Shown here: in pieces, positions 10,101 to 62,303 of the stretch | How the letters are laid out: each line of letters opens with the position of its first letter | How positions within the stretch are numbered: the stretch's first letter is position 1 | Origin: Lineus longissimus | Lineage: Eukaryota > Nemertea > Pilidiophora > Heteronemertea > Lineidae | NCBI RefSeq assembly: GCF_910592395.1 | Contig: NC_088313.1 | Location: 17,438,437-17,502,436 of the forward strand | Length of the DNA: 64,000 nt | Reading direction: 5' to 3' | Translations under genes and position numbers: made by a program | Notes under the pieces: generated by a model | The model's database searches: none | Told to the model about the DNA's origin: nothing | What the model saw: only the letters and a program-made list of their open reading frames with translations

Positions 10101-13100
10101 AGGGCCAAGTCTTTTAAATCAGTCTGAAATGCGGAGCAAATCACTTGACCTACTAGCATAATTTTATGTCTATAATCGAGTACTCACGAAGAGGCCGGAG
10201 TAAATTTAGAAGGCCATCAATATGTACGTAATCAAACCGAACTAAAGGTTACACTCATCTGTATAACGTTCATAGGACACCAGGTCTAGGAAAGCCAAGT
10301 ATTGCCCTGGTGAAATAAGCAGGGTGTTTTCCTAATGCAATGTATGGACTTACCTTGAACACCCAAGCGCATCTGTCACCTGCACTGTAAGTGTAATTCC
10401 CGCCAAACCCCGGTGTCTCGACAGTCAGGCTGTCGTGCTCGCCCAAGGAGAATATTCCACCACAGTCTGAAGATAAAGAAAATGAACATGCACCATCTCC
10501 GAAATTAGTAAAAATAGCAGTGAAACTAACCGACTAGTAGTAAATGTTAACCACTGGAATGATTAAGAATGACTATTTCCAAAGATTAAACAACTTTCAC
10601 AGTCGGTTCAATAGCAACTACCAGGGATGTACAATTTTACTGTAAAATAGTTATATCTATTAATTTATGTTAAGGGTGCACAAGCATACAACAATAAAGA
10701 AAACTGGTTACGTCCTGTCAGCGTAATTTAAGATGGAGGAGTGCACACGACAGTGTGCAATGCCAATGCAGAGAAAGGACTTTCTACATAAAAAAAGAAG
10801 TCATCTCAACTGATTGAAAATACATAGGGATGCATACGTACTCTTTGTCCAAGTCGGATCTTGCGTGTTGCACGTGTCACCTCCCAGACCATCGGGGCAA
10901 GTGCATCCACACGCTTTGTTCTGGTAACCACCATTTTGACAGGACGACGTATCGTTACAGCTGTCATTGCATTTGTACATGAAGTTGACGTTCATCTTGT
11001 CGTAGTAGCTCAGAAATCGGTTCCCCATTATAACATTTAGCGCCGGGTCATTTGCCGTTATGGTGGTTCTGCCATTTGCTGACCAGTCCTGTAATGTACA
11101 AATATTTAAATTGTGCCTGACCAGCCTAACCACCAGCTGATACCCGAGTTAAATATCGAAGCAATGTATTTATCGACATTGCCATACGTTACACTCTTTA
11201 TATAATCAAATCATGAAATGCCAGCTTGCGCTGTCTGTGACCCTTTACGTGTTGACACGTCGTCTGGCATAGGACAAATTAGGAAGCTTGCTTATTTCTT
11301 GATTAGGGAGATTTGTGAAACCTGAAAGACTGCTACATTTCTTCCACACTTTTTAATGGCCCCACCATGATACTTGATAAAAGTGGGCAGACAACATTCT
11401 ACATATTTTACTTCATGTTTATACGATCTGCCTCGATGTTTAGCGATTATGATATAATATAGATTCCTATTAGTGTACTTACTCTTGGCGCGGCAAGCAT
11501 AATTGACTCCAGATTGAAAGGTACCACGTTTAAGGAGGACTGCTTGTCAAAAATAAATGTTCTATCAGTCCTTATATTTTCATAATGAACTGTCACGTAC
11601 TCGTCTCTGTCACTACGCGACTGCTCGTGAATGAGCCCCAGCAGGTGCCCAAACTCGTGAAGGAGGATATAGTTCTGAAAGGAATGAAGAGAAAAGTTTG
11701 ATTGTTGGCTCGATTAATTGATTAATTGATTGATTGATTGATTAATTGATTTAGACCTACTGACTGACCAATTATCGAACCGGGTATCATTAATCCCAGC
11801 TTCCGAGCGGATCTCAGCGTCCAATCTTCTGGAGAGCATGCAAACGAAAGACAATACAGCTATGGATTTTGCCTTGGTTTTACTTTCACTGACCGAGGTT
11901 AGAATGCACCGTTTAGGTACGAAATACACCCCCCTTGACTAGAGTCTTTCAATATAAATTTATTTATTTATTGAAAGACTCCGCCTCAGCAAACACAAAA
12001 GTCGAACTGAGGCGATACGTATTACTTGGTATTCTCATCCAGTTGTCTAAGCTGTCCGAGGACTTCCTCGGTGACGATTGGGCATAGCTAGAAATGTCAA
12101 TACCTCAAGTAAAATCCTATGAACGATGTCTCAATGTCAGCCAAGCTTTTCAGTATTCCAGCATAACGATTACTGTATAACCGAAGTCCAACCATCTTTT
12201 AAGGTCATCCACAACACCTTTAAAAAGGTATTGTGGTTGACGTTCTCGGCCTCATCACCGAATTTTAGCTAAATTGTACGTTGAGAGCGATTAGTGAGTA
12301 GATGCATGCACGGTGATGCATGGGTGACAGAGAGAAATATAACAACTGGCGAACCATAGACACATTAGTGAGTTTTTGAAAAGCCTCCGAAACGCCAACG
12401 CGAAAGCCTTTCCCATTGTTCGAGCTCCTTCCTGATCACGATGTCGAAAATTGGGACAGGCGTTCGCGTTGTTGGTTGGCATTTCGGCGGATTTACGGAA
12501 AGCTTTAGCAGCTCGCGGCGAGCTGACGTCGGCCTTAATCAATGATAATGAAAGATACTCTCTAGTAGGGCTACCGCCGACTACGTCAACCATAAGTCCA
12601 AAAAGGAAATGTGCTAAAAGAGTGGATGGTTTGACGTCTTTCATTCTTGGGAGTTATCACGCGGTTTGACACTAACTCTAAAATAATAGTCTACTAACCT
12701 CCATGCACGTATCGCCAACTGATACTGTCTGTGGTTGATACTTTAAAGCTATTCTTCCTACACGCGAAGAACAGCCAGTGTAACCGCCGATTTTTGTCCA
12801 ATATTGGTCGGATGCGGTCTTTGGTCGGAAGGTCACGCAGGATATAGATTCATAAATGTCCATTATACCTCTGATAACCTGATGGTAATTTTGCTCGGCT
12901 AAATTGATTGTAAACAAGAATAATGATGAGGATAATAATAATAATAATAGTATCTTAAACAGGACATCTACATTGTCAATTAAGTTCGTACATTTATTAG
13001 TCCAAAAATATGTTTATAAATTGCATGTAATTGGAAAGCATGTACCTGAAAGTGAATAGCGAAATAAACAGATAAATTAGCACCTCTATATCATCGGGAA

Positions 13101-23516: not shown

Positions 23517-23589
23517 CACCCGCGTGGGGGCTCGAACCCCAGACCCTCAGGTTAAAAGCCTGATGCTCTACCGACTGAGCTACACGGGC
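23517..23589 (-). tRNA. tRNA-Lys (anticodon TTT)
   Basis: Read on the - strand from 23589, the sequence GCCCGTGTAGCTCAGTCGGT folds as a full cloverleaf. The acceptor stem GCCCGTG/CGCGGGT has G-U pairs at two positions, including the end. The anticodon stem TCAGG/CCTGA holds loop CTTTTAA (anticodon UUU), and the T arm is TGGGG-TTCGAGC-CCCCA. The A and B boxes are intact. No intron is present and no CCA is encoded. A TTTT terminator follows a few bases after the discriminator G. Confidence 0.95.
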
Positions 23590-24109: not shown

Positions 24110-24590
24110 ACGTTAGCTATTATACAAACATTATCGTAGCTAGCTCTAGGCTTCTAGCTATAAAACCTAGTCACGTGCTTTCTTATCTGTCTTGGTGTAT
24201 TCCTGGCGTAGCTGAGATATACCTAGTCCTATATTTCCCTAGCGAATGCAAACCTGGCCCTATACTAGCCTATAGCTAAGATATACCTGGTCCTACAATA
24301 GCCTAGCTAATTACAGTCGAACCTAGCCCTAGACTAGCCTAGCTGAGACTTATCTAGCATTAGACTATAACCTAGCTAATATAAACCTGGTCCTATACTA
24401 GTCTAGCTAATCATAGACAAATCTATACCTAGACTAGCCTAGCAGAGACTAAGCTAGCATTATACTAGCCTAGCTAATTAAAGACAAACCAAACCATAGG
24501 CTAACCTATCTGAGATTAATCTAGCTCACATAATAACTTAGCTGAGGCAAATCTAGCTCAAGAATACAGCCTAGCTATATCTTATCCAAG
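24110..24590. repeat. Degenerate CTAG-rich tandem repeat field
   Basis: A variable unit related to CCTAGACTAGCCTAGCTAA recurs many times with substitutions and length changes (for example AGCCTAGCTAATTA and ACCTAGCTAATAT). It looks like an old satellite or expanded minisatellite. The short frames inside it are not genes. Confidence 0.75.
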
Positions 24591-31018: not shown

Positions 31019-31024
31019 TTTATT
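31019..31024 (-). promoter_or_regulatory. Candidate AATAAA polyadenylation signal of the giant gene
   Basis: TTTATT on the + strand lies about 316 bases past the stop codon at 31340-31342. It is the nearest canonical signal I found in the right orientation. Confidence 0.4.
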
Positions 31025-31339: not shown

Positions 31340-31858
31340 TTAAACAGTAACGACGTGTACCTTCTGATGGGATCGGGTGATGGCCGCATCCCACCGCGAT
31401 TTAGACCCGCTCGTGAATTGATCACGGTATAATTTCCCATCCATGATATTTTCCTGATGAGTGGGCGGGTTATTTAATTCCATGATGTAAACGTCATGAT
31501 CCGTGTAGATAGAGCAGTGGAGACATTTGCCATTTTGAAGATTCTTAATATTAACGTCCCCATAGTATGTCCTCGTTAAACCATAAAGACCGTCCTGATA
31601 TTTAAATTTCACATATAAACCATTCCCGTCGTGACGGCGCTTGATTTTTAGGCCAACATTGAAGATCCGGTGTTTTTGATGACCCATCCACGACCGTAAT
31701 CCTTTTTCCTCGATCCATTGAGAATCCTCGTCGTACGGATTGTACAACAGAACAGTCATATACTCATCGAAGTTAATCGGCAAGACGACTGTTTCCGGTC
31801 GATCACGGTCCTCATCTCTCACGTTCTGGTTGTTAAAGTATAATCGGATGGTTCCAGT
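31340..31858 (-). other. C-terminal globular-looking domain of the giant protein
   Basis: The last ~172 residues differ sharply from the rest: mixed composition, many Tyr/Trp/Phe, alternating hydrophobics suggesting beta strands (ETVVLPINFDEYMTVLLYNP; GLYVKFKYQDGLYGLTRTYY; LHCSIYTDHDVYIMELNNPP). It carries the CLHC pair. I do not recognise the fold. Such a domain at the end of a long disordered repeat protein could be its anchoring or assembly part. Confidence 0.6.
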
Positions 31859-34800
31859 CTTACTCGAGTTCTCATCCTGCGACTCGCCACTCAGAGGCCG
31901 CTGCTGTGACCTTGGAATAAGTATAGGATCAGCAACAATTGCATCGGAGTCGACCTCAGGGATGTCTAGACAGGGAGGCTCGACTGATGCTTTGAACGGA
32001 GACATGTCTGGTGTTCTTCCCTCGCTGATCGCGTACCTGTCAGCTAAGCTAATCTCATCCCGTTCAATAAACAACGCTGGTCCCTCCTGGAGTTTCTCAG
32101 GCGTCACACCAATCGTCTGAGGCTCATCAGTATCCTCGATTCCCTTCTTCTTCTTTGGCGTCTTCCCCTTCGGACTTTTGCCTTTCTTTGGCGACTTCGG
32201 CTTCTTTTCCTTCCTCTTTTTAATCTTAAATGGTGTAAGTTTCTTCTTTTTCGGTGACTTAGTGTCTTTCACTTCTTTCGGCGCTTCTTCGTCAGATTGG
32301 ACACCTTCTAAGACCAGTTGTATTTCAGGTGACTCCAATGTTATATTTGGCTCGGCTTCGACGTGTAGCTCTACCTGAGGGACAACTTCAGGCTCTGTTT
32401 CATCAGCGGGGACGGCTTCAGGTTTTGCCTCTTTCGGGTGCTCCTCTTTCCTCAAACCAAGGGAAAATAACCAGCTTTTTCTCTTCTCTTTATCTTTTGG
32501 CTCCTTCTTATCTTCCCTCTCCAATGCCTTCAGCTTATCTTCGTCAGCCTTTTCCTTTTCCCTCTCCTTCTCCTTCTCTCTCTCCTCTTCTTTTTCCATG
32601 TCCTTTTCCTCATCAGGCTCAATCACCAGGTACCTCATGTGCTCCTTCTCCACAGGAGACGGAGTAGACTCAACAGCAGGTGCAACCGACACTTCAATCG
32701 TTCCCTCAACATCAGGTACCTCCACCCTGGGCACCACAACCTCCACTTGCCCTTCAGGCTCCTTCTTAAAACCTAGTTTGGCAAACCAGCTTCGCCTCTT
32801 TTCCTTATCCTTAGGCTCTTTATGTTTGTGGTCCTTTTTATCTCTCGGGCTGTCAGCCTTTTCATCCTCCTTGTCTGTTTTAACCTCGGGAATTTCTAAG
32901 CTGATTCTTGCCCCAGGCTCAACGATCAAAACATGCTCATCATCTTTCATGTCATCTGGTAAATCTAAGGATGGGAGTCTTATGGGTGTTTTCCTATACT
33001 CAAAACATTCAGATTCTCCAGCAGACGACATTTCAGACTCTCTTGTTGGACTTTCATCCCTGAGCTGGTCAAGAAGTGAACATATTGGATGGTCATCAGG
33101 GATCTCCACTAATTTCTCTTGCATTGGTGCCTCTGGCTTTGTTGGCGTTGTTCTTATTTCAAGGCATAAATCTTCTTCAACTTGGATTGAAGGCTCAGGT
33201 ATTGACACAGTCGGTGAATCTGGGAACTCAAAATCGAACTCTATCTCGGCTTCACCCTGAGGCTGTGGTACTTCAGGCCTTTGCACAACCAGCTTTGCAT
33301 CGGCTGGTTTCTCATGCTCGTGCTCGTGTGGCTCTTTCTTCAAACCCCAGCTCACCAGCCAACTCTTTCTCTTCTCCTTTTCTTTTTTGTTATTCGTTTT
33401 ATGCTCTGGTTTCAATTCATCCTTTTCTTTGGGTTTATCAGTTTTAGACCAACCATTATTTGGGTGCTCCTGCTGCTCACCTTCCAAGACAAAGTACCGC
33501 AGTGGTTCATCAACATCAGGGGTTTTGACCTTCACACCAACTGCACCTTCAACTTCAGGCTCGTCCTCGACCTTATTCCTTGGAACCTTCCTGACACCAA
33601 TCTTTTCTAGGAAGCTCCGTTTCTTAGGCAGATCAACCTTTTTCTTTGGTCTATCTTCATCGTCAGCCTTTTTCTCAACTTCTCTCTCTGTTTCAACTTC
33701 ACCTTCGACTTCAACCTTTGGCAGCACAACTGAACCAGCAACCTTGAGCTTGGTTTCATTGATGATGTCATCAACAATTTGGTCCACAACCTTTTCAACT
33801 TCACTTCTTTCAGGCTTATCTGGCTCATCAACTCTCACTGCCACATCAACCTTGGTATCTTCATGGCCTTCGGGGATAAATTTTGATGAGACCTTTACAA
33901 TTTCAACATCAACGCCAAGCTCGGCTTCTGGTTCCAGTTCAAAGGCAGGCCTCTTTGGTTCTTCAGGCCCTTCAACGACTGGGACAGTATCAACTTTGGG
34001 AGTGTCTACAACTAACTGCCCTTCAAACTCGGGTATTTTAAACTCAACAGATTCTGTTGCAGAAGGTTCTTTCTCTTCCACTTGCTTCTCAACTTCTGGT
34101 TTTTTATCTTTTCTAAAGCCAAAGGAGAAGAAATGCTTCTTCTTCTTCTTATCTTTCTTGTCCTCGCTTTCCGGCTCCTCAGAGTGTGCTCTTCCTGGTC
34201 TATCGAATTCCACCTCAGCACCAATGTCAGCAGACTTTGGTCTTGGTCTCTTCTCAACCTCCGGTTTCTTTTCGGACCTTGGAAGCCTGAAGGAAAAGGA
34301 GATACCTTTCTGTTTTGGTTTGTCAGGTTCTTTCTCCTTCTCCTCGTCCTCACGGACTAAGAACCGCACGGGTTCCTTATCTCCTTGTTCAACAGGTGCA
34401 ACAAACTCCACTTTAGGCTCCTCAGGCTTCTCAACACCCATTTCTATCCTAGGTTCAGCTGGGGCTTTGATGCCACCTTCAATCTCGATCCTGGCCTCGG
34501 GGAAATTGACCTCCGGTGCATCAATGACCAAATTGATTTCAGGCTCCGGTTTCGCCTCTTTTGTTGACTCCTCCGGTTCCTTATTTTCCTCCTTTGGCTT
34601 CTCTTCCTCATGAGCATGTTTCTTAAGATGGAAAGAGGGTAACTTAAACTTATGTTCATGTTTGTGTTCATCGGGCTTCTTATCAGCTTCATCCGGTTTC
34701 TCACCCTTTTGTTTCTTGAAGTGGAACGATGGAATCCTGAACTTCTTCTCCTTCTTTTTCTTTGGCTCTCCATCGACCTTGACCTCTGGAGTTTCAATCA

Positions 34801-37800
34801 ACAATGTTACCTCAGGTTCTGGCTTCTTCACTGCAGCTGTCACATCCAGCTCAGGTACTTCTGGCGTGTCAAACACGAGGCTGATGTCAGGCTGTTCTGG
34901 CAGTTCTATCTCTCGCTCGGCGACAGCCTCTTCAGGCTGTTCATAACCCTCGGGGATAAACTTGGTAGAGACTTTGACCACTTCTACTTCTTCCCCCTCT
35001 CCAATTTTAAGGCCATCAAAATCACCATCAACATCTACCTCTGGTTGAGGAACATCGAATTTCAGCTCAGGCTCTGGGAGACCAAATTCCATCTTTGCTT
35101 CACCTTCAATATCAACATCAGGTTTTCGGAAGTCAGCATGAGCGTGTGGCTCAGGACCATCAACGTCGACCTTCGGTGTTGGGGCTTCAAACACGAGTTT
35201 ATACTCAGGTTCTTCCTTCGGACTTTCAGCTTCTTTGTCATGTTTGTGAAAACCGAAGCTAGGTAGTTTGAACTTGTGTTTATGTTCATGATCCCCTTCC
35301 TTTTCAAGATCTTCCTTTTCCTTTGGTTGTGGAACTTCTCCAGATGCCTCAACATCCAATTCTGGACTTGGAGGTTCTAAAACTAACTTCATCTCAGGTT
35401 GAGTTGGTGAATCCACCTTTACCTCAGCGTCCACATCAGGTTTATCATGTTTATGTTTTCCCAGATGGAAATGTGGAAGATGGAATCTGTGCTTGTGGTC
35501 ACTGTCATCGCTGGAAGTTGATTTCCTCTTTCCCTCCTTATCTTCTTCATCGTCATCCTTCTCCTTGAGCTTCACATCAGCCGAGAAATCGACATCTGGG
35601 ACCCCCATAACAACTTTAATTTCAGGCTGTACCTCTCCCTTTATCTCGGGAATATCAGGCTCCTCAACCTCTGCAGAGGCCTTTATCTCTGGAATTTCAA
35701 TCTCCGGCTCCTTCACCTGAGTTTCTGGTGTTTCTAAAACCAACTTGATTTCAGGCTGATCTGGCGTCTTCACTTTTACATCGACCTCTTTTTTCGGCTT
35801 ATCATGCTTATGCTTTCCACCAAAATGGAAACTTGGGAACTTCGGGAGCTTGAACTTGTGCTTGTGCTTGTGGTCGCTGTCATCGCTGGCAGCTGATTCC
35901 CTCTTTCTCTTCTTATCCTCGTCATCGTCATCTTTCTCCCTGATTTGCACATCAGCTGAGAGATCGACATCTGGAACATCCATAACAAGCTTGATTTCAG
36001 GCTGCACCTCTCCCTTTATCTCGGGTATCTCAGGCTCCTCAAACTCTGCAGAAACCTTTATCTCGCGTATCTCAGGCTCTTCAACCTTCACATCAGCTGC
36101 GAGATCGACGTCTGGAACGTCCATTACAAGCTTAATGTCAGGCTCTGCCTCTCCCTTTATCTCTGGTATCTCAACCTCTGCCTCCTCGACCTGCAGTTCT
36201 GGTGTTTCTAAAACCAACTTGATTTCAGGCTGATCTGGCGTCTTCACTTTTACATCGACCTCTTTTTTCGGCTTATCATGCTTATGCTTTCCACCAAAAT
36301 GGAAACTTGGGAACTTCGGGAGCTTGAACTTGTGCTTGTGCTTATGGTCGCCGTCATCGCTGGCAGCTGATTCCCTCTTTTTCTTCTTATCCTCGTCATC
36401 GTCATCTTTCTCCCTGATTTTCACATCAGCTGAGAGATCGACTTCTGGAACATCCATAACAAGCTTGATTTCAGGCTGCACCTCTCCCTTTATCTCGGGT
36501 ATCTCAGGCTCCTCCACCTTCACATCAGCTGAGAGATCGTAATCTGGGACGTCCATAACAAATTTAATTTCAGGCTGTACCTCTCCCTTTATCTCGGGTA
36601 TCTCAGGCTCCTCAACCTCTGCAGAGGCCTTTATCTCTGGAATCTCAATCTCTGGATCCTTCACCTGAGTTTCTGGTGTTTCTAAAACCAACTTGATTTC
36701 AGGCTGATCTGGCGTCTTCACTTTTACATCGACCTCTTTTTTCGGCTTATCATGCTTATGCTTTCCACCAAAATGGAAACTTGGGAACTTCGGGAGCTTG
36801 AACTTGTGCTTGTGCTTGTGGTCGCTGTCATCGCTGGCAGCTGATTCCCTCTTTTTCTTCTTATCCTCGTCATCGTCATCTTTCTCCCTGATTTTTACAT
36901 CAGCTGAGAGATCGACTTCTGGAACATCCATAACAAGCTTAATTTCAGGCTGCACCTCTCCCTTTATCTCGGGTATCTCAGGCTCCTCAACATCTGCTGA
37001 GGCCTTTATCTTTATCTCCATTTCAGGTTCTTCGACATCAAATTCTGGAACCTCATGCACAAGTTTAATCTCAGGTGTTGTTGGCGACTCAACTGCAACA
37101 TCTGGTGTCTCGGGTTTATCATGTTTATGTTTACCTCCGAATTGGAAGCCAGGTACTTTGAACTTGTGTTTGTGATCATGGTCGTCCTTATCATCATCGG
37201 CAGCTACGTGAGGTTCTGGAGCATCTAAAACTAATTTTATTTCAGGTTCGGTTGGTGCATCTACTTTTACTTCGGCGTCCACGTCTGGTTGATCATGTTT
37301 ATGCTTGCCAAGGTGGAAATGTGGGAGATGAAACTTGTGTTTATGTTCATAATCCCCTTCTTTTTCAAGCTCTTCTTTTTCCTTCGGTTGGGGTACTTCT
37401 CCGGACGCCTCAACAGCAATCTCTGGACTAGCTGGTTCTAAAACTAACTTCATTTCGGGTTGAGTTGGTGAATCTATATTCACATCTGGTTTATCATGCT
37501 TTTGCTTGCCGAGGTGGAAATGTGGGAGATGAAACTTGTGTTTGTGTTTATGGTCACTGTCATCACTGGAAGTTGATTTTCTCTTTTCTTCCTCATCCTC
37601 GTCATCTTCGTTCTCCTTGACCCTCACATCAGCTGAGAAATCAACATCTGGAACGTCCATTACAAGTTTAATTTCAGGTTGTATCTCTCCCTTTATCTCG
37701 GGTATCTCAGGCTCCTCAACCTTCACATTAGCTGAGAGATCGACGTCTGGAACATCCATAACAAGCCTAATTTCAGGTTGATCTTCTCCCTTTATCTCTG

Positions 37801-40800
37801 GTATCTCAATCTCTGGCTCCTCTACTTCTGCTGCTGCCTTAACTACTACATCCAACTCAGGCTCTGGTGCTTGAGGTACATCAGGCATTTCAAGGACAAG
37901 CTTGATCTCAGGTTCTGCTGGTGTCTTAACCCGTTTCTCAATCTTTGGTTTACTATGTTTATTCTTGCCACCAAAATGAAAGCTTGGCATTTTAAATCTG
38001 TGTTTCTTGCCTGCTGGTTCCTGGTCATCACTGGCTGTTGATTTCCTTTTATCTTTCAAATCATCCTTTGGCTCTCCATCTTCAGGTACTTGGACGTCCC
38101 CCTTACCATCAATGCCGAAGTCTATTTTTGGTGCATCAACAACCAGCTTGATTTCTGGTTCCTCTTCGACATTAACTTTAGGGAGCTCAACCTCTGCAGC
38201 CCCAGCAATCTCCGCTTTAGGTTCTGGTGCCTCCAACACAAGCTTAATCTCGGGCTCTGTCGGTGTTTCAACTTCAACAGCGCCACCCTTCGGTTTCTTT
38301 GGCTTGTCATGTTTACCAAAGTGAAAACTTGGAAACTTTGGAAGTTTGAACTTGTGTTTTTTCCCTTCACGATCACTGTCAGCACTGAGAGTCGATTTCC
38401 GCTTATCCTTCTCATCTTTGGACATTTCTAGGTGTGGCTGCTCAAACACAAGTGATATTTCGGGTGGCTCTGGCTTGTCAAAATCTACCTCGACGACAGG
38501 TTCTCCCTCAGCTACTTTGATGTCGTCAATGACTGCAGACCCTTCCACTTTCAACTCGGGCTCTGGTACATCAATAACAAGTTTAGTGTCCGGGACTTCA
38601 ATTTCAGGGGCAGCGATTTCTGCCTGCGGTTTTGGGACAATATCAACCTGTGCATCTGCATCGGGGACATCAAGTTCCACTTTCGGTTCCGGGGTCTCAA
38701 AAACTAGCTTGAACTCTGGCTCTTCCTTCGGTGACTCAATATCATCATGACCATGTTTATGCTTGTTGAAAGCAAAGCCTGGCATTTTGAATTTGTGCTT
38801 ATGCTCATGATCACCATCTTCCCCTGTCTCGGGTACATCATACACAAGTTTTAGCTCAGGCTCGGTTGGAGTTTCCACTTCACCTTCAATCTCACCCTCA
38901 TGTTTGTGCTTCTTGAAACCAAAGCTTGGGAGTTTGAACTTGTGTTTATGTTCATGGTCCTCATCATTATCCTCAGGTTTATCCTCCTTTTCAAGGACTA
39001 ATACAATAGACTGTGGTCTTGTATCAACATCAACATCTGGTATCTCAGGGACGTTAACTTCAGCGATGACCTCACCAGCAGCTGGAATGTCAGGCTTTGG
39101 TATGTCTGGTACATCTGGTGTTTCGATCGCAAGCTCAAACTCAGGTCCTTCTGGTAATACTGCCTTGGGCTTTTCACCCTCTATGCAAGGCTCAACTTCA
39201 GCGGACACCTCTGGTATTTCAGGAGTGTCGAGGACTAATTTAACTTCAGGTCCTGTAGGTATCTGCACCTCTTTGTCAGGTTTGTCGTGCTTATGTTTTC
39301 CAAAACCAAAACTTGGGAGTTTGAATTTGTGTTTATCTCCATGTCTTTTCCCATCATCGGCTTTATCATCCACATCTGGCTTTTCAACCTCTACAGCAAC
39401 CTGCGGTTCTGGAGTCTCCAACACCAGCTTCATTTCGGCTGGTTCTCCCTCTTTCTTCTCCTGGTCAGGTGCCCATTTCTTATGCTTTCCGAAGTGGAAG
39501 CTTGGGAGTTTAAACTTATGTTTATGCTTATGGTCACCATCATCATCACTTGAAGTTGACTTTCTCTTCTCTTTATCGTTTTTGTCATCTTTTTTCTCAA
39601 CCTTTATGCCGGCAGAGATATCAACATCAGGAACATCAACTTCAGGGTTCTCAACCTCAGGCATATCAACTTGTGGTTGTGGAACATCCATAACCAGCTT
39701 AAATTCCGGCTGATCACTACCCGCTATCTCGGGTGTTTCAACTTCATGATCCTTTAGCTCTGGTTTTGAAGCTTCCAGAACAAGCTTGATTTCAGGCTCA
39801 GCTGATGCACCGACTTTAATTTCAGCGTCCTTATCGGGTTTACCATGTTTATGCTTTCCACCAAAATGGAAACTTGGAAACTTTGGCAGTTTAAATTTGT
39901 GCTTGTGTTTGTGGTCACTGTCATCGCTTGCAGCTGACTTCCTCTTTTCTTTCTTATCCTCTTTATTGTCATCCTTCTCCTCGTCTTTTTCTCTGACCTT
40001 TACATCAGCTGAGAAATCAACATCAGGGACGTCCATAACTAGCTTAATTTCAGGCTGCACCTCTCCCTTTATCTCGGGCATCTCAGGCTCAACCTCAACT
40101 GCAACAGCTACCTCAGGTTCCGGCACTTCTGGTGTCTCAAGAACAAGCTTTATCTCAGGCTCAGTCGGTGTGGTGACCGCAACATCAACCCCATCAGGTG
40201 TCTCTGGTTTATCATGTTTGTGTTTACCGCCAATGTGGAAACCTGGAACTTTGAACTTGTGTTTATGTTCATGGTCTTTCTCATCATCGTCACCTTCGGG
40301 AGTCTTCACATGAGGTTCTGGAGCTTCAAAAACTAACTTCATTTCAGGTTGAGTCGGTGAATCTACTTTTACATCAGCGTCTACATCTGGTTCATCATGC
40401 TTATGCTTGCCAAGGTGGAAATGTGGCAGATGAAACTTGTGTTTGTGTTTGTGGTCACTGTCATCGCTGGCAGTTGATTTCCTCTTCTCATCGTCTTCGT
40501 CATCATCCTTTTCGTCATCTTTCTCCCTGATCTTCACATCAGCTGAGAGGTCGAGATCAGGAACATCCATAACCAGCTTTATTTCAGGCTGATCTTCTTC
40601 CTTTATCTCGGGAATCTCAATTTCAGGTTCCTGAACTTCTGCTGAGGCACCAATCACAACTGGCAGCTCAGGCTCCGGGACTTCCGGCACCTCATGGACA
40701 AGTTTAATTTCGGGCTGTGTTGGTGTGGTAACTGTGACATCAACGCCATCTGGTGTTTCCGGTTTGTCATGTTTGTGTTTACCCCCGAAGTGGAAACTTG

Positions 40801-43800
40801 GAAGTTTGAACTTGTGTTTATGTTCATGGTCATCCTTTTTATCATCAGCCTTTTCCTCCTCCTTGCGCTCACCCTCCTCTTCGTCTTCATCATCTTTCTT
40901 TCTCTTTTCAACCTTTGGTTTGTCTCGCTTCTTCCCAAAGCTGAAACTTGGAATTCTGAAGCTTGATTTCTTCTTGACATCCTTGTCCTTGTCCTTTGGT
41001 TCAGGTGGCTCAACAACGAGTAGAGACACTGGTCTCGATGAAGGTCCTCCCTCTTTCTCCTTTGGCTTCTCTGGTGTCTCAACTACAAGGATGATTTCTG
41101 ACTGTGGCCTAGATGGTATTTCCACATCAGCACCAACCTTTACATCTGCATCTAGCCCTGGTTCAGGAATTTCCGGTGTTTCAAGGACAAACTTCGTTTC
41201 AGGCTGATCGCCATCGGGTTTCTCCACCTCTGGCACATCGACATCAGCAGATGCCCTTATTGAAAGATCAAGCTCTGGTTCAGGGATATCAGGTATTTCT
41301 GGAGTATCGATTTCCACTTTAAACCCAGGGTCAGTTGGAGTCACCGCTTCTCCTTCCGAGTCGTCCTTTTCTTTATCATGTTTATGCTTTTTAAAGCCAA
41401 AACTTGGAAGTTTGAACTTATGTTTGTGTTCATGGTCATCATCCTTTTCATCAGGTTTATGGTCGTCCTTCTCAAGGACTAAGACAACCGACGGAGGTCG
41501 TTGTCCATCATCAACTTTAGGTATGTCCACATCAATTCCACCTGAGCCTTCAATTGCAACGTTTGGTTCTGGTGTGTCAAGAACCAATTTTATTTCTTGC
41601 GGTTCTGTGGGCGTGCCTGGCTCTCCATCGCCCTTGCCATGTTTATGTTTACCAAATCCAAAACTGGGAAGATGGATCTTGTGCTTGTGTTTCTGATCAT
41701 CATCATCTTTAGGTTTCTCATCTTCTTCATCTTCAGGTCGTTCTTTTTCTTCTGTTTCTGGCTTATCGATATCTGCTGAAGCTTTGACAGCAACTGTTAC
41801 CTCCGGCTCCGGTGCTTTAGGAGTCTCAAAGACCAACTTAATCTCAGGCTCAGTTGGAGTGTCACCCTCTTTTTCGGGCTTATCATGTTTGTGTTTTCCA
41901 CCAAAATGAAAACTTGGAAGTTTAAACCTATGCTTGTGATCATGATCACTATCATCACTAGTAGTAGACTTCCTCTTCTCTTTTGAATCATCAGTGTCTT
42001 CCTCTGGGTGTTCTTTATCATCCTTCCCCTTCTTCTTCTTCTTTTTGTCCTTCTTTGGTTTTCCCTTTCCAAAATGAAAGCTAGGTAACTTGAAACTGGC
42101 TTTGTGTTCAATAGTAGGTTTGTTCTTGTCTTCTTCAGTTGGTTTTTCGACACCAAATGCACCACCAATGGCTAGACTAGGTTCTGGTACATCAACAGAG
42201 ACATGTGGTTTAGGCGTCTCGACTGTGATATTAGGGTCCTCGAATATTAGTTTTACTCTTGGTTCTTTATCTGGCTTGTCTTCTGCTGGGATTATATCAG
42301 GTTCCTCCACCTCCAGTTCTAGTTCAGGTGCAATTTTCACAGAAAAATCAACCTCTGGCAGAGATTCAAGTGGAACAATAGGGGTCTCTCCCACGACCTC
42401 TACTTCCAGAATCGGTTCAGAAGGCCTCTCACCTTCCTCCAGTACTGGTTTCCCTGGGCCAGGAATGGTTCCCCTTGGCGGATTTGTGATGACTTCCTCA
42501 CTCCTTTCTAATGCAGGACCTTCTTCTGTCTCCTTTTTGTCATGTTTATGCTTCCCAAACTGGAAAGACGGGAGCTTAAATCTATGTTTATGATCATGTT
42601 CAACCTCCGCTGACCCTGCAACTTGTGGTGCCATGACAAGCTGGACCTCAGGTTCAGCTTCCCTTTCCTTATCATGCTTGGATTTACCAAAGTGGAAACT
42701 TGGAAGTCTGAATTTCTGCTTGTGTTCATGATCTTCATCTTGGTCATCCCTTGCATGTCTGTGTTCCTCATTGGTAGATTCGTCCTTTGGTTTTTCATAT
42801 TTCTCCTTCTGTTCATCAGTTTTGTCTTTCTTGAAACTAAATAATTTGCTCTTTCGTTTCTTCTTCTTCTTTCCTTTGGTATCTGCACCCTCCACGCCAG
42901 CATCTACAGACAACGCAGCTCCTACTGCAACTGTTGGAACATCAACTGTGATACCAGCCTTGGCTTCAACGTCTGCTTCAGCTTTGACCTCAACCGGTTT
43001 TTCTTCTTTCACCTGTTCGTGATCCTTCTCGTCTTCTTTAGGCTGCTCCTCCTCCTTTGGTTTGGTTGGTTGTTCCTCTGTAGACACACCAATACCAATA
43101 CCCGCAGTAACCCCAGCTTCCACATTATCTGCATTCATAGCTGCAATCATCTCTTCCTTAAAACTCTCCAATCTGTCCTCAATTGCTGACGAATCGGCCT
43201 CCTCCGGTTCCGGGGCTTCTACTGGCTTCTCCTTGTCTTTCTTTTCTTCACCCTCCGGCATATCCACAACAGATTCACGTACTTCAAGTTTTACTTCGAC
43301 AGGTTCTGGTTGCACAACGGCAGGCGCTGTCTCAAAACCCACAACAACAACCGCACCTTGATCAGGAGTTTCCAATGGAATCTTTTTGATAGCATCTAAT
43401 ATTGACTCCTCCTCTTGAGGTTGAACTGGTTCCTGAGCGTGTTCTAATTCAGGTTGTTTCGCCTCCACCTTCATTTCCATCGGTTCCTCCTGCTGTTCTG
43501 TGGACGGTGTGGTTTCCGCTGCCTCTGGTTGGGTCATTTCTGTTGTTGTTGGTTCTTTGGTAACATCTGCTGCTGCCTCCGTTGGTTTGACATCTTCTTT
43601 AGGTTTCTCCTTCTCATCTGCTTCATCCTCCTTCTTTTTGAAACTGAATATTTTTATTTTCTTTTTCCGTTTCTTTTTGCCCTCTTTCTCTTCGGGCTCT
43701 GCTGCCTCGGGCTCCTGAGGTTCGTCTTTCTTCTCCTCCTCCTTAGGAGGTTCTGCAGGCATCTCGGGTTGCTCCTTTCTTTTCCTCCCCTTCTTTCCTT

Positions 43801-44482
43801 TCTTCTTTTTCTTTGGCTTCTCCTCTGCAGGCTCGTCTTCTGTCTCCTTCTTACCCTTACCGAAGGACCTCCTGAGACTACCAAACAATGTTGCACTAGC
43901 ACCACTACTTTTGTGGTCATCTGAAACAGATGATGTCCCTTCTGAAGGCTCCGTGGACAGGGTAGACACAGGTCGCTCCTGTTTCTCTCCTTCACGGACC
44001 TCTACAGGTTCATCTGTTGTTTCCGGCCTAGTTTCCTCCTCCGCCGCGGCCGGTGGCGTCGTTTCCTCTCTCTGTGGTTCCATCTCGTGTTTCTCTGCCA
44101 CAGGATCGGCAGAGGGGGCAGCACCTTCAGACTGCACAACGCCTGGTGCCCTCTCCTCCTCGATAGCCTGTGGTTTAGGTTGCTCCTGAGTTAAATACGT
44201 ACCATTCACAACAACAACATTCGGATCACGAAATCTCTCTACCTCTTCTAGTATTCCCGTACTTTCCTCATCCGCATTATCTTTTGTCTCCTTCTTTTCA
44301 CTCTCATCGCCTTGAGGATTTACATCATTGAGTTTACCATCCACACCCCCATGGTTATGCTCCTTTAATTTGCCCTCATCGTAAGTATCCAATTTGCTTG
44401 TGTCAGTTTCGTAATCCTTGTCGTATTCTTTCTTACCGACAGGACCTACGTCTGGTCCAGTGTCCACCGTGACAGGTTCCAT
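31340..44482 (-). CDS. Giant His-rich, basic-aromatic repeat protein, 4,380 residues, single coding exon
   Basis: One frame of 13,143 bases runs from ATG at 44482 to a stop at 31340. An in-frame TAA nine codons upstream (44509-44507) fixes the start. Residues 1-280 are acidic and Glu/Pro-rich. From about 280 to 4,120 there are roughly 36 short basic-aromatic modules. Most read like HKHKFKLPSFHFGKHKHD, separated by acidic stretches and a recurring hydrophobic motif of the type PEIKLVLETPE. N-terminal and C-terminal modules lack His (KIKIFSFKKK; KEKRKSWLFSLGLRKE). Residues 4,209-4,380 look globular, with many aromatics and a CLHC pair. There is no signal peptide or membrane helix, and Cys is very rare, so an intracellular protein is likely. 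The LP-F-F modules recall AHNAK/periaxin repeats, and the basic F-S-F modules recall the MARCKS effector region, but no PDZ or other known domain is visible. Function unknown; scaffold, membrane-cortex or metal-binding roles are inference. Confidence 0.95.
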   Translation of the reverse strand: MEPVTVDTGPDVGPVGKKEYDKDYETDTSKLDTYDEGKLKEHNHGGVDGKLNDVNPQGDESEKKETKDNADEESTGILEEVERFRDPNVVVVNGTYLTQEQPKPQAIEEERAPGVVQSEGAAPSADPVAEKHEMEPQREETTPPAAAEEETRPETTDEPVEVREGEKQERPVSTLSTEPSEGTSSVSDDHKSSGASATLFGSLRRSFGKGKKETEDEPAEEKPKKKKKGKKGRKRKEQPEMPAEPPKEEEKKDEPQEPEAAEPEEKEGKKKRKKKIKIFSFKKKEDEADEKEKPKEDVKPTEAAADVTKEPTTTEMTQPEAAETTPSTEQQEEPMEMKVEAKQPELEHAQEPVQPQEEESILDAIKKIPLETPDQGAVVVVGFETAPAVVQPEPVEVKLEVRESVVDMPEGEEKKDKEKPVEAPEPEEADSSAIEDRLESFKEEMIAAMNADNVEAGVTAGIGIGVSTEEQPTKPKEEEQPKEDEKDHEQVKEEKPVEVKAEADVEAKAGITVDVPTVAVGAALSVDAGVEGADTKGKKKKKRKSKLFSFKKDKTDEQKEKYEKPKDESTNEEHRHARDDQDEDHEHKQKFRLPSFHFGKSKHDKEREAEPEVQLVMAPQVAGSAEVEHDHKHRFKLPSFQFGKHKHDKKETEEGPALERSEEVITNPPRGTIPGPGKPVLEEGERPSEPILEVEVVGETPIVPLESLPEVDFSVKIAPELELEVEEPDIIPAEDKPDKEPRVKLIFEDPNITVETPKPHVSVDVPEPSLAIGGAFGVEKPTEEDKNKPTIEHKASFKLPSFHFGKGKPKKDKKKKKKGKDDKEHPEEDTDDSKEKRKSTTSDDSDHDHKHRFKLPSFHFGGKHKHDKPEKEGDTPTEPEIKLVFETPKAPEPEVTVAVKASADIDKPETEEKERPEDEEDEKPKDDDDQKHKHKIHLPSFGFGKHKHGKGDGEPGTPTEPQEIKLVLDTPEPNVAIEGSGGIDVDIPKVDDGQRPPSVVLVLEKDDHKPDEKDDDHEHKHKFKLPSFGFKKHKHDKEKDDSEGEAVTPTDPGFKVEIDTPEIPDIPEPELDLSIRASADVDVPEVEKPDGDQPETKFVLETPEIPEPGLDADVKVGADVEIPSRPQSEIILVVETPEKPKEKEGGPSSRPVSLLVVEPPEPKDKDKDVKKKSSFRIPSFSFGKKRDKPKVEKRKKDDEDEEEGERKEEEKADDKKDDHEHKHKFKLPSFHFGGKHKHDKPETPDGVDVTVTTPTQPEIKLVHEVPEVPEPELPVVIGASAEVQEPEIEIPEIKEEDQPEIKLVMDVPDLDLSADVKIREKDDEKDDDEDDEKRKSTASDDSDHKHKHKFHLPHFHLGKHKHDEPDVDADVKVDSPTQPEMKLVFEAPEPHVKTPEGDDDEKDHEHKHKFKVPGFHIGGKHKHDKPETPDGVDVAVTTPTEPEIKLVLETPEVPEPEVAVAVEVEPEMPEIKGEVQPEIKLVMDVPDVDFSADVKVREKDEEKDDNKEDKKEKRKSAASDDSDHKHKHKFKLPKFPSFHFGGKHKHGKPDKDAEIKVGASAEPEIKLVLEASKPELKDHEVETPEIAGSDQPEFKLVMDVPQPQVDMPEVENPEVDVPDVDISAGIKVEKKDDKNDKEKRKSTSSDDDGDHKHKHKFKLPSFHFGKHKKWAPDQEKKEGEPAEMKLVLETPEPQVAVEVEKPDVDDKADDGKRHGDKHKFKLPSFGFGKHKHDKPDKEVQIPTGPEVKLVLDTPEIPEVSAEVEPCIEGEKPKAVLPEGPEFELAIETPDVPDIPKPDIPAAGEVIAEVNVPEIPDVDVDTRPQSIVLVLEKEDKPEDNDEDHEHKHKFKLPSFGFKKHKHEGEIEGEVETPTEPELKLVYDVPETGEDGDHEHKHKFKMPGFAFNKHKHGHDDIESPKEEPEFKLVFETPEPKVELDVPDADAQVDIVPKPQAEIAAPEIEVPDTKLVIDVPEPELKVEGSAVIDDIKVAEGEPVVEVDFDKPEPPEISLVFEQPHLEMSKDEKDKRKSTLSADSDREGKKHKFKLPKFPSFHFGKHDKPKKPKGGAVEVETPTEPEIKLVLEAPEPKAEIAGAAEVELPKVNVEEEPEIKLVVDAPKIDFGIDGKGDVQVPEDGEPKDDLKDKRKSTASDDQEPAGKKHRFKMPSFHFGGKNKHSKPKIEKRVKTPAEPEIKLVLEMPDVPQAPEPELDVVVKAAAEVEEPEIEIPEIKGEDQPEIRLVMDVPDVDLSANVKVEEPEIPEIKGEIQPEIKLVMDVPDVDFSADVRVKENEDDEDEEEKRKSTSSDDSDHKHKHKFHLPHFHLGKQKHDKPDVNIDSPTQPEMKLVLEPASPEIAVEASGEVPQPKEKEELEKEGDYEHKHKFHLPHFHLGKHKHDQPDVDAEVKVDAPTEPEIKLVLDAPEPHVAADDDKDDHDHKHKFKVPGFQFGGKHKHDKPETPDVAVESPTTPEIKLVHEVPEFDVEEPEMEIKIKASADVEEPEIPEIKGEVQPEIKLVMDVPEVDLSADVKIREKDDDDEDKKKKRESAASDDSDHKHKHKFKLPKFPSFHFGGKHKHDKPKKEVDVKVKTPDQPEIKLVLETPETQVKDPEIEIPEIKASAEVEEPEIPEIKGEVQPEIKFVMDVPDYDLSADVKVEEPEIPEIKGEVQPEIKLVMDVPEVDLSADVKIREKDDDDEDKKKKRESAASDDGDHKHKHKFKLPKFPSFHFGGKHKHDKPKKEVDVKVKTPDQPEIKLVLETPELQVEEAEVEIPEIKGEAEPDIKLVMDVPDVDLAADVKVEEPEIREIKVSAEFEEPEIPEIKGEVQPEIKLVMDVPDVDLSADVQIREKDDDDEDKKRKRESAASDDSDHKHKHKFKLPKFPSFHFGGKHKHDKPKKEVDVKVKTPDQPEIKLVLETPETQVKEPEIEIPEIKASAEVEEPDIPEIKGEVQPEIKVVMGVPDVDFSADVKLKEKDDDEEDKEGKRKSTSSDDSDHKHRFHLPHFHLGKHKHDKPDVDAEVKVDSPTQPEMKLVLEPPSPELDVEASGEVPQPKEKEDLEKEGDHEHKHKFKLPSFGFHKHDKEAESPKEEPEYKLVFEAPTPKVDVDGPEPHAHADFRKPDVDIEGEAKMEFGLPEPELKFDVPQPEVDVDGDFDGLKIGEGEEVEVVKVSTKFIPEGYEQPEEAVAEREIELPEQPDISLVFDTPEVPELDVTAAVKKPEPEVTLLIETPEVKVDGEPKKKKEKKFRIPSFHFKKQKGEKPDEADKKPDEHKHEHKFKLPSFHLKKHAHEEEKPKEENKEPEESTKEAKPEPEINLVIDAPEVNFPEARIEIEGGIKAPAEPRIEMGVEKPEEPKVEFVAPVEQGDKEPVRFLVREDEEKEKEPDKPKQKGISFSFRLPRSEKKPEVEKRPRPKSADIGAEVEFDRPGRAHSEEPESEDKKDKKKKKHFFSFGFRKDKKPEVEKQVEEKEPSATESVEFKIPEFEGQLVVDTPKVDTVPVVEGPEEPKRPAFELEPEAELGVDVEIVKVSSKFIPEGHEDTKVDVAVRVDEPDKPERSEVEKVVDQIVDDIINETKLKVAGSVVLPKVEVEGEVETEREVEKKADDEDRPKKKVDLPKKRSFLEKIGVRKVPRNKVEDEPEVEGAVGVKVKTPDVDEPLRYFVLEGEQQEHPNNGWSKTDKPKEKDELKPEHKTNNKKEKEKRKSWLVSWGLKKEPHEHEHEKPADAKLVVQRPEVPQPQGEAEIEFDFEFPDSPTVSIPEPSIQVEEDLCLEIRTTPTKPEAPMQEKLVEIPDDHPICSLLDQLRDESPTRESEMSSAGESECFEYRKTPIRLPSLDLPDDMKDDEHVLIVEPGARISLEIPEVKTDKEDEKADSPRDKKDHKHKEPKDKEKRRSWFAKLGFKKEPEGQVEVVVPRVEVPDVEGTIEVSVAPAVESTPSPVEKEHMRYLVIEPDEEKDMEKEEEREKEKEREKEKADEDKLKALEREDKKEPKDKEKRKSWLFSLGLRKEEHPKEAKPEAVPADETEPEVVPQVELHVEAEPNITLESPEIQLVLEGVQSDEEAPKEVKDTKSPKKKKLTPFKIKKRKEKKPKSPKKGKSPKGKTPKKKKGIEDTDEPQTIGVTPEKLQEGPALFIERDEISLADRYAISEGRTPDMSPFKASVEPPCLDIPEVDSDAIVADPILIPRSQQRPLSGESQDENSSKTGTIRLYFNNQNVRDEDRDRPETVVLPINFDEYMTVLLYNPYDEDSQWIEEKGLRSWMGHQKHRIFNVGLKIKRRHDGNGLYVKFKYQDGLYGLTRTYYGDVNIKNLQNGKCLHCSIYTDHDVYIMELNNPPTHQENIMDGKLYRDQFTSGSKSRWDAAITRSHQKVHVVTV
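32170..43680 (-). repeat. Coding repeat array of about 36 basic-aromatic modules
   Basis: The modules number about 36 by eye. About 25 carry the H-K-H-K core before F-[KH]-[LMV]-P-x-F and K-H-K-H after it. Many are preceded by a KRKS[TA][AS]SDDSD string with an Arg-Lys-Ser basophilic site next to an acidic Ser-Asp-Asp casein-kinase-2-like site. Between modules lie Pro/Glu/Asp/Val stretches such as EPEIPEIKGEVQPEIKLVMD. Codon bias of the sense strand leaves long Ser/Leu-rich frames open on the + strand; those are shadows. Confidence 0.9.
35640..37020 (-). repeat. Three tandem near-identical 474-bp units inside the giant gene
   Basis: The marker TCTGGCGTCTTCAC begins at 35760, 36234 and 36708, exactly 474 bases apart (158 codons). 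About 150 bases after each marker are nearly identical between copies, down to silent positions. This points to recent in-frame unequal crossing-over or gene conversion. Assemblies may collapse or expand this stretch. Confidence 0.92.
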
Positions 44483-44577: not shown

Positions 44578-45910
44578 CTGAAATGATAGAAGGAGGAATA
44601 TCGTGAGACCATTGTAGGGGGAATTTCATGAAAACTTACTATCTAAACAATTCTTGGGCGCCTGAAAAAGCAATGGTCTGTACATGTATGTAGGACGAAA
44701 TACTTTGGCCACTAATAAGGTATTCTGAAAAGCAAGGAAACTGTAAATTAGAATACATTGATGAATGGCATTGTTGAGCCCTTTGCGACTCACCATTATT
44801 CCATCTTCTAGCCGGCACACAATAACTTACCATATCAACATAGTGTCCGCTTAGATGTGAAGGTTAACATAGGACGTATAGCCTTCGAAAGGGAGGCCAC
44901 TTCAAGAACAAATGGAAACTCAATTCTGCTTAAGTATCGATGGGTTGAAAGGGGTTAAAACGTGCGCATCATTAGCCTGGGTGACTCAATCTATGTGCGG
45001 TTTCTAGAATCTAAACAAGCCCAACCTCAAAACAAGCATACTGATGGTTCCATTGACGTGTACAGCTAATGATTATCGATTTAAGGCGATCACACTCATG
45101 CTATAGATATTCGCAAAGGATGGCAATCACCTTGATATCATATACGCAGTTAATACCTATTAATCTCTCCGAACCACATTCGAAACCTAAGTGCCACTTT
45201 TTCACTACAGTAGCTTAGTTCGCATTGCAAGAAGTGTTTTGCCAGCTACATGCCATATAGCAGGTCTAGAACGAGAAAGGTGGTAAGGAACGCAAGAATG
45301 CCGAAGATGTCAATATGCCAACAATCTGAAACCATTTAGGCTTTAAAGAAATTGAAGTAAAAGTCCATGGGATGTTTTTATGTTCAAATTCAATGCACAT
45401 TGAGCCTTCAACCATCGGTCTTAACGTTAAAAACGACTTGATGTCAGGCATAATATTGAACACCTCAACCACACAAGCAAATCCATTTTTTTTCATAAAC
45501 ATGTCAGCATTAGAGTTATCGCAGGTTGTGGAAGGTTTTCCAGTTTGACTGCCAAAAACACGGTCCACCTGCGAGCTAGCCAGTGAGTCCTGGCTTCCGC
45601 AAACGGTGAGTTATTACTCGTACCTTTCAGCACAAAAATAGAAAACAATAAAAAACAGTTTCAAACCTATACTAGTTTTCAGTATCAAAACCTCTTTTTC
45701 TTCTTCAAAAACTTATTCTTATTTTCCTATCCACATGATATACATGTAAACCGCCACATGATATAGTGTTGACCACTAAATTCTCATCGGTATTGAAAGA
45801 ACAGTACTTTCATACATCACCATACAAAGTAAGGGACTTTCCCAAGGGGACATTTAAAACTGCTTCACTATCACCTTAAACATCATTTGTATTGCTCACC
45901 AAAAATGTCA

Positions 45911-45981
45911 GCACCGCTAGTGTAGTGGTATCATGCAAGATTCCCATTCTTGCGACCCGGGTTCGATTCCCGGGCGGTGCA
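45911..45981 (+). tRNA. tRNA-Gly (anticodon CCC), copy 1
   Basis: The 71-base sequence starting GCACCGCTAGTGTAGTGGTA forms a full cloverleaf. The acceptor GCACCGC pairs with GCGGTGC, the anticodon stem CAAGA/TCTTG holds loop TTCCCAT, and the T arm is CCGGG-TTCGATT-CCCGG. A TTTTT terminator starts three bases after the end. It lies between the inferred first exon and the coding exon of the giant gene, on the opposite strand. Confidence 0.97.
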
Positions 45982-46394
45982 AAGTTTTTGAGAATTTTAA
46001 AATTTTTTATCAATGAGGTTTAAAGAATACTGTACTGTTTTTTTGGAAAATGATGAAGCGTATTTTATATTAGACGAGAAAAATTCAATGGGCTCAATTG
46101 TCTGTGTAATGTGCAGGCTCCGAACCAGGCGTGCAATATGGCGCATAAACAAGGTGCCCAGCCCCAGGACCGCTCAAGCTTATTTTGCACAGATGTTAAC
46201 ATCTACATGTACTCTTTCCCGCTCCTATACCAATCCCAGGTATACGCCCGCCATTGCAAAGTTACCTACTGTGCTCTTCACCCAACCTAATTATTAAACT
46301 CTCAAAAACTTCAAAAACTTGAAAAATCTTCAACTAATTAAACGGTTTCATGCAAAATGAGAAAAAGTGGTAATACATACAAGATTCCATCTAC

Positions 46395-46471: not shown

Positions 46472-46481
46472 CTTATATATA
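46472..46481 (-). promoter_or_regulatory. TATA box of the inferred giant-gene promoter
   Basis: TATATATAAG on the - strand starts 29 bases upstream of the A in the initiator-like TCAGACT. It is embedded in unusually GC-rich flanks (GCGGCCA before, GCGCCGCGC after). The spacing is that of a classical TATA-initiator core promoter. Confidence 0.55.
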
Positions 46482-62232: not shown

Positions 62233-62303
62233 GCACCGCTAGTGTAGTGGTATCATGCAAGATTCCCATTCTTGCGACCCGGGTTCGATTCCCGGGCGGT
62301 GCA
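62233..62303 (+). tRNA. tRNA-Gly (anticodon CCC), copy 2
   Basis: All 71 bases are identical to the copy at 45911-45981, including the loop TTCCCAT and T arm. The flanks differ apart from a T-run terminator directly after the gene. It is therefore an independent locus of the same tRNA family. Confidence 0.97.

Follow-up and report, generated by a model that had tools for sequence, protein, structure and literature searches.

A giant single-exon protein with histidine-rich, basic-aromatic modules as a candidate pH-dependent membrane scaffold

Introduction

The effector domain of MARCKS holds PIP2 through its lysines and inserts its phenylalanines, and either PKC phosphorylation or calmodulin releases it (PMC4607481). 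In MARCKS, as in the MARCKS-like segments of AKAP12/gravin, a peptide of the form FKLxxFxFKKxK is set in an acidic chain rich in Pro and Ala/Glu. AHNAK and AHNAK2 have a giant coding exon in which acidic and basic-aromatic segments alternate, and their repeats recur regularly, in units about 128 or 165 residues long (PMC10682155). Periaxin is described as a disordered, compositionally segmented cytoplasmic scaffold; it is smaller and has an N-terminal PDZ dimer (PMC7072810). A precedent for pH regulation is hisactophilin of Dictyostelium, a small, folded, myristoylated, His-rich protein with pH-regulated binding to actin and membranes (PMC13405390). The Plasmodium lysine-rich repeat proteins of the erythrocyte periphery carry many short, periphery-targeting basic repeats and resemble the present protein by description (PMC5207086), although they are exported parasite proteins.

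The locus described here lies in a window of 64,000 nucleotides of Lineus longissimus DNA, the whole stretch that was analysed. It encodes a giant protein with peptides resembling the MARCKS form in a similar acidic, Pro- and Ala/Glu-rich chain. MARCKS has one such peptide, whereas the giant protein has at least 27, in which His alternates with Lys, and it has a conserved C-terminal unit of its own. It begins with MEPVTV; since residue 2 is Glu and Gly2 is absent, it lacks an N-myristoylation signal. The lack of Gly2 and of any match among PDB sequences also distinguishes it from hisactophilin. In size and in its giant coding exon it is similar to AHNAK and AHNAK2, but its repeats are irregularly spaced, its His is dense, its conserved C-terminus is different and it has no PDZ domain. 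His modules are not among the features that the cited account reports for periaxin (PMC7072810).

Reading frame and genomic neighbourhood

The giant protein was encoded on the minus strand, from an ATG at 44482 to a TAA at 31342-31340, in 4,380 codons (4,380 aa + stop). A sequence-only reading had claimed a single frame of about 13 kb in one coding exon, naming no strand, and this held. The frame was free of stops from 44506, and the resulting run of 4,388 codons is far beyond chance, as the longest run in all six frames of 100 first-order Markov versions of the same DNA was 322 codons (mean 215). A chance or antisense reading frame was dropped on the basis of these simulations and of the shortness of the plus-strand open pieces beneath the gene. 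The protein was rich in Glu (15.7%), Lys (13.9%), Pro (10.2%), Asp (9.6%) and Val (8.8%), with 4.0% His.

Judged by their motifs, an intron in the 5'UTR upstream of the coding sequence and a poly-A signal downstream of it are likely (Table 1). An in-frame TAA lies between the candidate acceptor and the ATG, just before 44506, which makes 44482 the earliest possible start in the model with the 5'UTR intron. The context of this ATG was weak, with T at position -3. A tRNA-Gly(CCC) gene (45911-45981) was located within the possible intron, on the opposite strand. It was alike across about 88 aligned bases to a second tRNA-Gly(CCC) gene (62233-62303), and a tRNA-Lys(TTT) gene was present at 23517-23589.

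Astacin-type metalloprotease exons lay on the minus strand at 4380-13528, together with a MAM domain and a weakly matching EGF-like piece. About 300 bases apart, two minus-strand open pieces matched neighbouring stretches of the astacin profile (79-142 and 151-189) and a third matched MAM, in agreement with the earlier claim of an intron-bearing neighbour. In the open piece 4380-4712, a 21-base minisatellite (4411-4625) encoded a linker rich in Thr, Glu and Pro. Another MAM match, on the plus strand (827-1437), was weaker (E 0.00011, under the curated cut-off); it adjoined a Thr/Pro-rich open piece and is possibly a related gene. Tandem arrays with units of about 100, 67 and 15 bases, made from CTAGCCTAG-like words, occupied 24273-24525.

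Table 1. Features of the giant-protein locus, in window positions.
Feature	Positions	Strand	Basis
Giant-protein coding sequence, one coding exon	31340..44482	-	reading frame
TATA-like box TATATATAAG, possible promoter	46472..46481	-	sequence motif, inferred
Possible 5'UTR intron, 1,817 bases, donor CCAAAG|GTAGAT, acceptor TTTCAG|AGTTCG	44578..46394	-	motifs alone
AATAAA poly-A signal, about 320 bases past the stop	31019..31024	-	motif
N-terminal side: three looser basic-aromatic segments, starts 43879, 43654, 42847	42800..43879	-	by eye
27 canonical modules at intervals of 31 to 177 residues, consensus HxHKHKFKLPSFHFGKHKHDKP	34580..42766	-	motif search, alignment
Three near-identical tandem units, 474 bases (158 aa) each	35570..36990	-	repeat search; codon comparison
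C-terminal side: seven looser basic-aromatic segments, several with the pattern KRKSWLxSxGLKKE	32210..34303	-	by eye
Conserved C-terminal 172-residue unit, ends KVHVVTV	31343..31858	-	one relative

Modules and distribution of histidine

Canonical modules were defined as [FI]x[LIVM]P, then F within 5 residues, with flanking basic residues. A 28th match to the regular expression, FKIPEF at residue 3481, was left out of the count because it lacks basic flanks. The sequence-only reading had counted about 36 modules. Here 27 stand as canonical, and ten looser basic-aromatic segments, picked by eye near both ends of the protein, raise this to 37, near the earlier figure. Two of the three looser segments on the N-terminal side contain FSFKK, as in MARCKS. 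The acidic segments between the modules contain 33 motifs resembling E-I-K-L-V-x-x-x-P, with a few lying just outside 34580..42766.

The modules share F-x-L-P-x-F, with His and Lys alternating on both sides. Pro at +3 and Phe at +5 were present in every module, which the search pattern partly imposed, and His occupied the aligned positions -6, -4 and -2 in 19, 22 and 23 of the 27, respectively. His and Lys exchange at module positions: in a few modules and in the end segments, Lys or another residue stands at places that His occupies elsewhere, and three of the 27 modules contain 0, 1 and 2 His. KRKS or KRES with Asp behind it precedes 11 of the 27 modules in the alignment (the regular expression listed ten).

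The density of His could also be explained by a protein that binds or stores metal, with the HxH pairs of the modules binding zinc, copper or nickel and membranes uninvolved. The 68 overlapping HxH triplets in the whole protein and the location of 135 of its 177 His inside the 24-residue windows of the 27 modules are in line with this explanation. We nevertheless regard it as unlikely, since metal sites would disallow the three His-poor modules with Lys or other residues instead, and Cys amounts to only about 0.1% in the first 4,200 residues. Among invertebrates, known His-rich metal proteins that are secreted have signal peptides, whereas Kyte-Doolittle hydropathy revealed no signal-peptide-like or membrane-spanning stretch over the giant protein (highest 19-residue mean 1.31). 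At the N-terminus, windows that began within residues 1-30 were below -0.55, and a secreted protein was dropped as a candidate on this ground.

The three tandem units are, as read from their sequence, a recent internal duplication. Pairwise codon comparison of the 158-residue copies gave dN/dS values of 0.45, 0.19 and 0.87. This uneven divergence (0.19 to 0.87, window 33893-36385) could reflect gene conversion or a relaxation of constraint. The pN/pS ratio was 0.21 for module cores and 0.24 for EIKLV cores. Because part of each motif was set by the search pattern, these values are biased, and synonymous sites were saturated; they weakly suggest constraint on both kinds of core.

Likeness to MARCKS and AHNAK peptides

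Scored on the MARCKS effector peptide, 18 of the 27 modules lay at a level that no more than 5% of 300 shuffles attained. The other nine failed, including all five with a KFPSF insertion. All 27 modules scored higher than their own reversal (mean 33.4 vs 22.0), and the whole protein scored 50 forward and 39 reversed. In the best module match to the effector domain, KHKFKLPSFGFKKHKHE was aligned to KKSFKLSGFSFKKNKKE. Two of the five looser end segments tested passed the shuffle test. An AHNAK peptide passed the same threshold in 22 of the 27 modules, so what the modules resemble is a general style of basic-aromatic peptide rather than MARCKS specifically. Pfam searches with the 27 single modules at E<=10 found no MARCKS family, which is a further difference from MARCKS.

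The MARCKS effector domain itself is a nuclear localisation signal (PMC4607481), and basic stretches of the giant protein such as KKKKKGKKGRKRK could be nuclear signals as well. Both points are compatible with a nuclear protein that binds RNA or other nucleic acids, or with an actin-bundling protein, in which the basic modules would bind polyanions other than lipids. Charge alone, however, would not need Phe and basic residues in a fixed order in each module, and Pfam found no nucleic-acid-binding domain; we consider this explanation quite improbable.

A diverged invertebrate member of the AHNAK/periaxin group that lost its PDZ domain would account for the shared anatomy, in which a giant exon encodes acidic PxVxV-like segments alternating with basic KFKxP-x-F segments. 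Scored against an AHNAK unit, four of five 160-residue windows exceeded 99% or more of their letter shuffles. When residues were shuffled in blocks of 5 or 8, however, 3% and 6% of 200 trials, respectively, came up to this score, so pattern and composition explain much of the likeness. The module spacing is irregular, with regularity confined to the three 158-residue copies, and no named protein is related to the C-terminal unit. Pfam and PDB sequences revealed no PDZ domain in the protein, which agrees with the earlier description of an AHNAK/periaxin-like style in a protein without this domain. Upstream, none was seen by eye (GLGF-like motifs, 44-64 kb) or with Pfam in seven open frames; a short, diverged PDZ exon may lie in a frame outside these seven. 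Descent from the AHNAK/periaxin group is held to be unlikely.

C-terminal unit and homology searches

A search with the last 186 residues (8 candidates) gave one hit, P0001, a protein of 221 residues from one metagenome contig of 6,169 bases. It was identical to the last 172 residues of the giant protein at 146 of 172 positions, without a gap and with one run of 46 identical residues, and both proteins stop at the same residue after KVHVVTV. The linker preceding the unit was less alike (32 of 48 residues identical, three gaps). This match shows that the C-terminal unit is constrained and that the gene is not confined to a single assembly; it is uninformative on the modules, as the alignment stops short of them. 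The proposal that the last 172 residues would be the best handle for the family was thus borne out by one relative. NCBIfam had no match for the last 186 residues or for P0001, and Pfam gave only DUF2491 (E 0.16) in one of the two. AlphaFold models from two-sequence alignments had mean pLDDT values of 33.4 and 32.7, too poor for a fold search, and the strands they contain carry no weight here.

The whole protein had no credible Pfam match at E<=1: the single match, Phage_spike (E 0.29), was at chance level and far under its cut-off, in keeping with the earlier view that no known domain is visible. Among PDB sequences of at least 20 residues, nothing matched the giant protein, and a profile of the modules found nothing at E<=10. 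When the full protein was scored on residues 4150-4380 against 173 candidates, limited to proteins 0.55 to 1.75 times the query length, none matched at E<=10. For residues 2700-3530, which contain modules, none matched at E<=0.01 among the 7,991 best candidates by shared words, the words being taken from the first 500 residues of the piece. Pattern searches returned 2 stretches from viral contigs and 12 from genome contigs, of which 0 were confirmed in either set. A confident match to a named family, which the sequence-only reading had named as refuting its proposal, was not found in the libraries searched.

The literature search for 'histidine-rich' together with the string HKHKFKLPSF returned none. 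No such protein appeared in the titles and abstract openings of the matches listed on MARCKS and invertebrate repeats or on intronless or giant His-rich proteins, nor, for AHNAK-like proteins in spiralians, in those of the best 10 of 8,491 matches. Lophotrochin and other spiralian motif genes were considered and set aside as a different gene, with no link found in the cited account (PMC7441323).

Proposed function

We favour, with a probability of roughly 0.4, a cytosolic, AHNAK-like and mostly disordered scaffold that would grip the inner face of a membrane through many weak modules in a pH-dependent manner. The giant protein is charge-rich and falls on the disordered side of the charge-hydropathy line, a line that is non-discriminating here because the C-terminal unit also falls on that side. 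The scaffold is predicted to lie along the inner face of membranes. By resemblance to MARCKS, Lys and Arg of the modules would contact PIP2 and other acidic lipids, and Phe would dip into the bilayer, while the acidic stretches between modules may act as spacers.

Owing to the alternation of Lys and His in the central modules, the computed mean charge of a 24-residue module rises from about +4 (+4.1 with neutral His) to about +9 (+9.1 with fully charged His). An acid cytosol would thereby charge the His and tighten the grip on the membrane. Replacement of His by Lys or other residues in a few modules and end segments leads us to favour a pH-dependent charge over metal binding, and the exchange of His for Lys fits a role in charge. 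The KRKS or KRES motifs with Asp that precede some modules are likely kinase sites, at which phosphorylation could loosen the grip. C-terminal ends such as V-T-V can fit a PDZ domain; the C-terminal unit may have a binding partner, and a PDZ domain in another protein could accept its V-T-V end.

A bolder version of the membrane-scaffold reading, which we put forward as doubtful but conceivable, is a new animal family: a giant polymer of MARCKS-like modules in which the alternation of Lys and His would make a membrane-binding peptide a 27-fold pH switch, with its own conserved C-terminal tether. It would form a pH-gated coat and a reservoir for acidic lipids under the plasma membrane. If this is true, an animal made a multivalent membrane pH sensor by repeating one short module, a natural design with a graded, cooperative response. 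It would also be a non-vertebrate counterpart to the giant scaffolds of AHNAK/periaxin style, minus their PDZ domain. The conserved C-terminal unit would then deserve a name and could be used to search for the family in animal proteomes.
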